NCBI RefSeq assembly: GCF_001598055.1
Contig: NZ_CP014844.1
Location: 4,553,642-4,617,641 of the forward strand
Length of the DNA stretch: 64,000 nucleotides
Reading direction: 5' to 3'
Source of the DNA: Cupriavidus nantongensis
GTDB taxonomy: Bacteria > Pseudomonadota > Gammaproteobacteria > Burkholderiales > Burkholderiaceae
In this document: positions 60,790 through 63,692 of the stretch, one piece after another
Layout of the letters: the number at the start of each line of letters is the position of its first letter
How positions within the stretch are numbered: position 1 is the stretch's first letter
Position numbers and translations under genes: made by a program
The notes under the pieces: model-generated
What the model was told of the DNA's origin: nothing
The model's database searches: none
Seen by the model: only the letters and a program-made list of their open reading frames with translations

Positions 60790-63692
<2,903 letters not shown>

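Follow-up and report, generated by a model that had tools for sequence, protein, structure and literature searches.

A 68-nucleotide gap in four 23S rRNA genes of Cupriavidus nantongensis is almost certainly an assembly artefact

Ribosomal RNA (rrn) operons, of which Cupriavidus genomes carry 4 to 7, are described as a frequent source of fragmentation or misassembly in these genomes, above all with short reads (PMC8729776), and another paper deals with hybrid assemblies in which repeats collapse or single-copy sequence is falsely lost (PMC10868617). The C. nantongensis assembly analysed here resembles collapses of rRNA repeats, as these sources outline them, in that the repeat has been reduced to one type, contigs end at its edges and the spacer tRNAs are lost; it is unlike them in that the pasted consensus has an internal gap of 68 nt in a highly conserved part of 23S rRNA. 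The domain concerned is known from mutants: the A1067 loop lies in the GTPase-associated centre, and ribosomes with A1067U or with A1067 deleted were purified from an Escherichia coli strain without chromosomal rrn operons (PMC5829649). The same domain is affected in the 23S gene as assembled here, but those mutants, as far as that account goes, have single-base changes, whereas 68 nt are absent from the letters assembled here. No report of a 23S rRNA without the L11 domain was found among the titles and abstract openings that an open-literature search for one returned.

Beside the gap lies an expansion whose nearest described counterparts are intervening sequences of helix 45, one of which is described in Coxiella (PMC4990558); the helix 25 and helix 45 regions have been examined in Campylobacter (PMC2801512). 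Like such sequences, in the outline that these sources give, the expansion forms a long stem when folded and occurs only in some operons of relatives. This likeness concerns the neighbouring expansion alone and does not extend to the gap.

The gap and the adjoining expansion

The window (the whole 64,000-nt stretch of DNA that was analysed) contains a 23S rRNA gene that reads GGCTTAGAAGCAGCC and then CCAGTCACCGAAGCTGCGG on the minus strand, with GGCTTAGAAGCAGCC running directly into CCAGTCACC between positions 62622 and 62621 (Table 1). A sequence-only reading of the window had reported that about 68 nt of the GTPase-associated centre were gone. The gap is confirmed in the assembled letters, and comparison with a complete copy in the same genome (L011) puts it at exactly 68 nt, the other 2904 nt being identical. 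By E. coli numbering, we take the missing stretch to be part of the GTPase-associated centre (H42–H44, the L11/thiostrepton site). Against the Rfam model RF02541 the complete copy scores 2777.6 bits, compared with 2620.4 for the window copy, and the consensus alignment of the latter fails just past GCAGCC, with the downstream letters made to fill the positions of the missing stretch. It had also been claimed that the near-universal stretch containing A1095 is nowhere else in the window, and this holds: the AAAGAAAGCGTAATAGCTCACTG motif has no match there, even with up to 3 mismatches allowed. The flanks at the breakpoints share no microhomology (letters read by eye), so a real deletion by slippage between repeats is not supported.

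Table 1. Coordinates of rRNA and ribosomal protein features in the window
Feature	Positions	Strand	Details
23S rRNA gene as assembled	60789..63692	(-)	2904 nt, 68 nt shorter than the complete copy; Rfam RF02541, 2620.4 bits
Junction, 68 nt of the presumed GTPase-associated centre gone	62621..62622	(-)	Comparison with L011
Helix-45 intervening-sequence-like expansion, approximate	62499..62598	(-)	Limits are where insert-less copies stop and resume matching
16S–23S spacer, part of 335 nt	63693..64000	(-)	Without tRNA-Ile/Ala; three relatives carry both in the syntenic operon
5S rRNA	60561..60673	(-)	RF00001
rplK, ribosomal protein L11, intact	56920..57351	(-)	143 aa; TIGR01632, 212.4 bits, cutoff 141.85
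rplJ, ribosomal protein L10, intact	55294..55815	(-)	NF000955, 181.6 bits, cutoff 85
rplL, ribosomal protein L7/L12, intact	54850..55224	(-)	TIGR00855, 162.2 bits, cutoff 84.4

The assembly (G000) comprises 7,136,420 bases in 3 contigs, is scored at a completeness of 100 and contains five rrn operons. Comparing all of these, a check that the sequence-only reading had proposed, revealed the gap in four of the five and a complete 23S gene in the fifth (L011, at C1:2.41 Mb). The four gapped 23S copies are mutually identical over 2904 nt, their breakpoint is clean and the same in each, and the complete 23S matches the short version at 100% in two pieces with 68 nt between them. Apart from the gap, the gapped unit is identical to the complete C1:2.41 Mb operon over 23S, spacer and leader. 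Because the gapped copies are identical to one another and to the complete copy, they are not independent, and a 23S lacking the GTPase-associated centre in four of five assembled copies does not amount to four observations. In the plasmid collection, the best-matching named rrn records belong to Cupriavidus (96.0–96.8%).

Across the family sample, the short spacing of the gap's flanks occurred in 1 of 398 genomes, the present one, at four places, and in none of the other 397, in 307 of which the normal spacing was detectable. In this control, 308 of the 398 genomes, ours included, showed normal spacing, and the other 90 lacked the flank pattern at that spacing; set against these counts, the short spacing is not due to chance. 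A scan of genome_contigs, from which our own record may have been left out, returned no stretch with the short-spacing pattern. These data bear on the idea that one real operon carries a deletion, tolerated thanks to the intact operons, and that the assembler spread this copy to four loci. A junction that is clean and identical in four copies is what would be expected of a consensus from real reads, and several rrn copies could, on general grounds, mask a single bad one. However, the gapped unit is of the C1:2.41 Mb operon type in its 23S, spacer and leader, and that operon is itself assembled complete; moreover, no other genome in the family sample has such a copy. A tolerated deletion of this kind is therefore very unlikely. 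There is similarly little chance that one or more of the real operons code for a 23S rRNA lacking most of the L11/GTPase-associated domain, which would give rise to a minor class of ribosomes unable to use that site.

The expansion next to the gap lies at a site that is presumably helix 45 by 23S numbering. Folding of positions 62480–62615 gave a long hairpin (−69.7 kcal/mol, z −6.9), and the expansion was found in some, but not all, operons of same-genus relatives, at 94–99% over the queried stretch. Judged by an exact 18-nt motif, 1 of the relatives' 12 operons that are syntenic with the gapped copies has the insert, as do 1 of the 3 syntenic with the fifth and all five copies of the present genome. 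A strong stem and a sporadic presence among operons are features of helix-45 intervening sequences, and the expansion is likely to be an intervening sequence of this known kind, whose excision from the rRNA by RNase III would be expected. It is not part of the artefact, because it is found in relatives too. An unusual expansion had been said to adjoin the gap; the adjacency is correct, as the gap stops 23 nt short of where insert-bearing and insert-less copies diverge, and the expansion is of a known kind that occurs in relatives too. In one relative (G145), the 23S of the tRNA-less operon (L129) has about 137 extra nucleotides between its matches to positions 541 and 547 of the window 23S, perhaps a second intervening sequence.

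Spacer tRNAs missing from the assembly

The 16S–23S spacer is the same in all five operons, 335 nt long and of a tRNA-less type, and Rfam found no tRNA in any of the five. Genome-wide, Rfam detected 57 tRNA-like genes; none of the 56 that were assigned anticodons by ARAGORN is Ile(GAT) or Ala(TGC). The 57th match (L167, C1:4082167-4082236), which scores low (35.2 bits) and was not called by ARAGORN, has a loop that is not that of an Ile or Ala tRNA (by eye) and is perhaps a degenerate tRNA. When the assembly was searched at the DNA level with the tRNA-Ile(GAT) and tRNA-Ala(TGC) of a relative, the best matches were to tRNA-Val (86%) and tRNA-Ala(GGC) (80%). Given that tRNA-Ile(GAU) is required for reading the codons AUU and AUC, which would be unreadable without it, real sequence must be absent from the assembly. 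An essential sequence that lies within the repeat has thus been lost.

How often such a loss occurs was gauged in a genus sample of 60 genomes, queried with one relative's tRNA-Ile-to-tRNA-Ala stretch. Both tRNAs were present in 20 of the 21 other genomes with ≤10 contigs, and G138 gave partial matches only. Among the drafts with more contigs (n = 38), 14 had at least part of the tRNA stretch and 24 gave only a weak cross-match, a result to be expected if rrn repeats are left unassembled; our genome is the only one with ≤10 contigs in this weak class. Because it is common in drafts (24 of 38), absence of the tRNAs by itself marks an incomplete rrn repeat, not a pasted copy.

Natural concerted evolution was considered as the source of the identical copies. 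We rejected this candidate, because it would have stripped the cell of tRNA-Ile(GAT) and tRNA-Ala(TGC).

Operon types and edges of the shared block

The flanks of the five rrn loci match five loci in three same-genus relatives (G145, G172 and G231). Around the complete copy, all three relatives match the downstream flank, but only G231 matches the upstream flank strongly, G145 and G172 doing so weakly. The four gapped copies occupy four loci at which the relatives carry operons, and both spacer tRNAs are present in all 11 readable operons syntenic with them (the twelfth, L138, is masked there). In the three relatives, the tRNA-less spacer type is confined to the locus of the complete copy, where 3 of 3 syntenic operons lack the tRNAs. 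Spacer lengths in the relatives differ in the same way, at 322–323 nt for the operons syntenic with the complete copy versus 504–524 nt for those syntenic with the gapped loci (9 of 12 measurable). Three of the gapped copies (window, C2:0.56 Mb and C2-end) have leaders that match the tRNA-less operon of the three relatives at 92.9, 86.4 and 98.9%, one value per relative, and the operons of their own syntenic loci less closely, at 78.2–90.1% (2 of the 9 comparisons being masked); the fourth gapped copy, at C1:4.395 Mb, has no leader to compare. One repeat type is therefore present at loci where the relatives have several. Two 23S segments and the final 200 nt of the spacer were also tried as type markers and do not separate the pasted from the syntenic type.

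The shared block touches the end of C1 on its left and the end of C2 on its right, and the sequences starting at C1:1 and C2:1 continue as the flanks of the operons at these ends. On the left, the window operon, which is the C1-end operon, shows no difference from the complete copy until the contig ends, 2107 nt ahead of the 23S gene; the C2-end operon first differs from the complete copy one base beyond this limit, and the C2:0.56 Mb copy passes into another flank at the very base where the C2-end copy does. The edge of the C2:0.56 Mb copy was read from the letters, owing to a one-base insertion in its 16S. The right-hand divergence of the C2:0.56 Mb and C1:4.395 Mb copies begins 274 nt after the 23S gene, where C2 ends, and that of the window copy 283 nt after it. 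Because the window operon has its outer flank at C1:1 and the C2-end operon has its own at C2:1, both chromosomes appear to have been cut at a repeat edge.

Two further joins are faulty. At the C1 joint, 73 nt of leader are duplicated, one version being of the C1:1 type and the other of the pasted-block type (69 of 73 identical). The C1:4.395 Mb operon has neither its leader nor the first 97 nt of its 16S; these are replaced by an exact 511-nt copy of C1:1408-1918 (L163, C1:4398596-4399106). The C1:1408-1918 stretch lies upstream of the window's operon in three relatives, and was not found at the locus syntenic with C1:4.395 Mb in L143, from the one relative readable there. The leader duplication and this chimera are misjoins. 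Repeat edges in this assembly thus coincide with contig ends or faulty joins.

Aside from its insertion, the 16S of the C2:0.56 Mb operon (L161) has three substitutions relative to the other copies; these differences may have survived from a native copy or may be errors.

Origin of the gap

The four copies have abnormal edges and belong to an operon type that is wrong for their loci; we infer that the same process produced the gap. The missing tRNAs, the mismatch in synteny, the block edges and the 511-nt substitution together argue that the repeat collapsed to one consensus, which was pasted at four loci; because the C1:2.41 Mb operon is complete in the assembly, the gap in a consensus copied from it is best read as an error. 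With a high degree of confidence, then, we attribute the 68-nt gap to genome assembly at a collapsed rrn repeat, with the consensus placed at four loci. Some points speak against an artefact: the assembly is near-closed, the four loci match operon loci in relatives, the breakpoint is clean and identical, and the complete fifth copy shows that the region could be represented in this assembly.

The assembled letters are what would favour a different reading, in which four of the five 23S genes truly lack the L11/thiostrepton domain and the cell has altered or specialised ribosomes. Taken at face value, however, the same operons leave no tRNA-Ile(GAU) or tRNA-Ala(UGC), and one of them lacks the 5′ end of its 16S. 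A complete 23S is present, and the window has intact and ordinary genes for L11, L10, L7/L12 and EF-Tu. We regard such ribosomes as scarcely credible. The gap observed in the window could not on its own have established the assembled sequence as real, and the wider genome argues against it. The sequence-only reading had left the choice between an assembly collapse, an altered ribosome and a tolerated defective copy; the missing tRNAs, the edges at contig ends, the duplicated leader and the chimeric 16S favour the first, the ordinary proteins and complete 23S speak against the second, and the third is unlikely. The gap is almost certainly an assembly error and not a new kind of ribosome, and the ribosomes of this organism are most likely ordinary.

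Under the assembly explanation, the true genome would very probably have five rrn operons, as its relatives do; only the one at C1:2.41 Mb would lack spacer tRNAs, and the other four would carry tRNA-Ile and tRNA-Ala. The rrn repeat would have collapsed into a single consensus of the tRNA-less type, which would then have gained a misjoin of 68 nt, some 23 nt ahead of the helix-45 insert, and been put, with its gap, at four other loci. The divergence of insert-bearing and insert-less copies is a place where assembly graphs branch, and the gap may be tied to it.

A near-closed genome scored at 100 for completeness can therefore hold four wrong rRNA operons and a chimeric 16S and lack two essential tRNAs. 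Such records would mislead work on ribosome evolution, the design of rRNA probes and counts of tRNA genes, and checking for spacer tRNAs is a quick way of exposing them.

Elsewhere in the window, positions 13742-13823 match the anti-hemB RNA (Burkholderia RNA 7) at 74.4 bits in Rfam.
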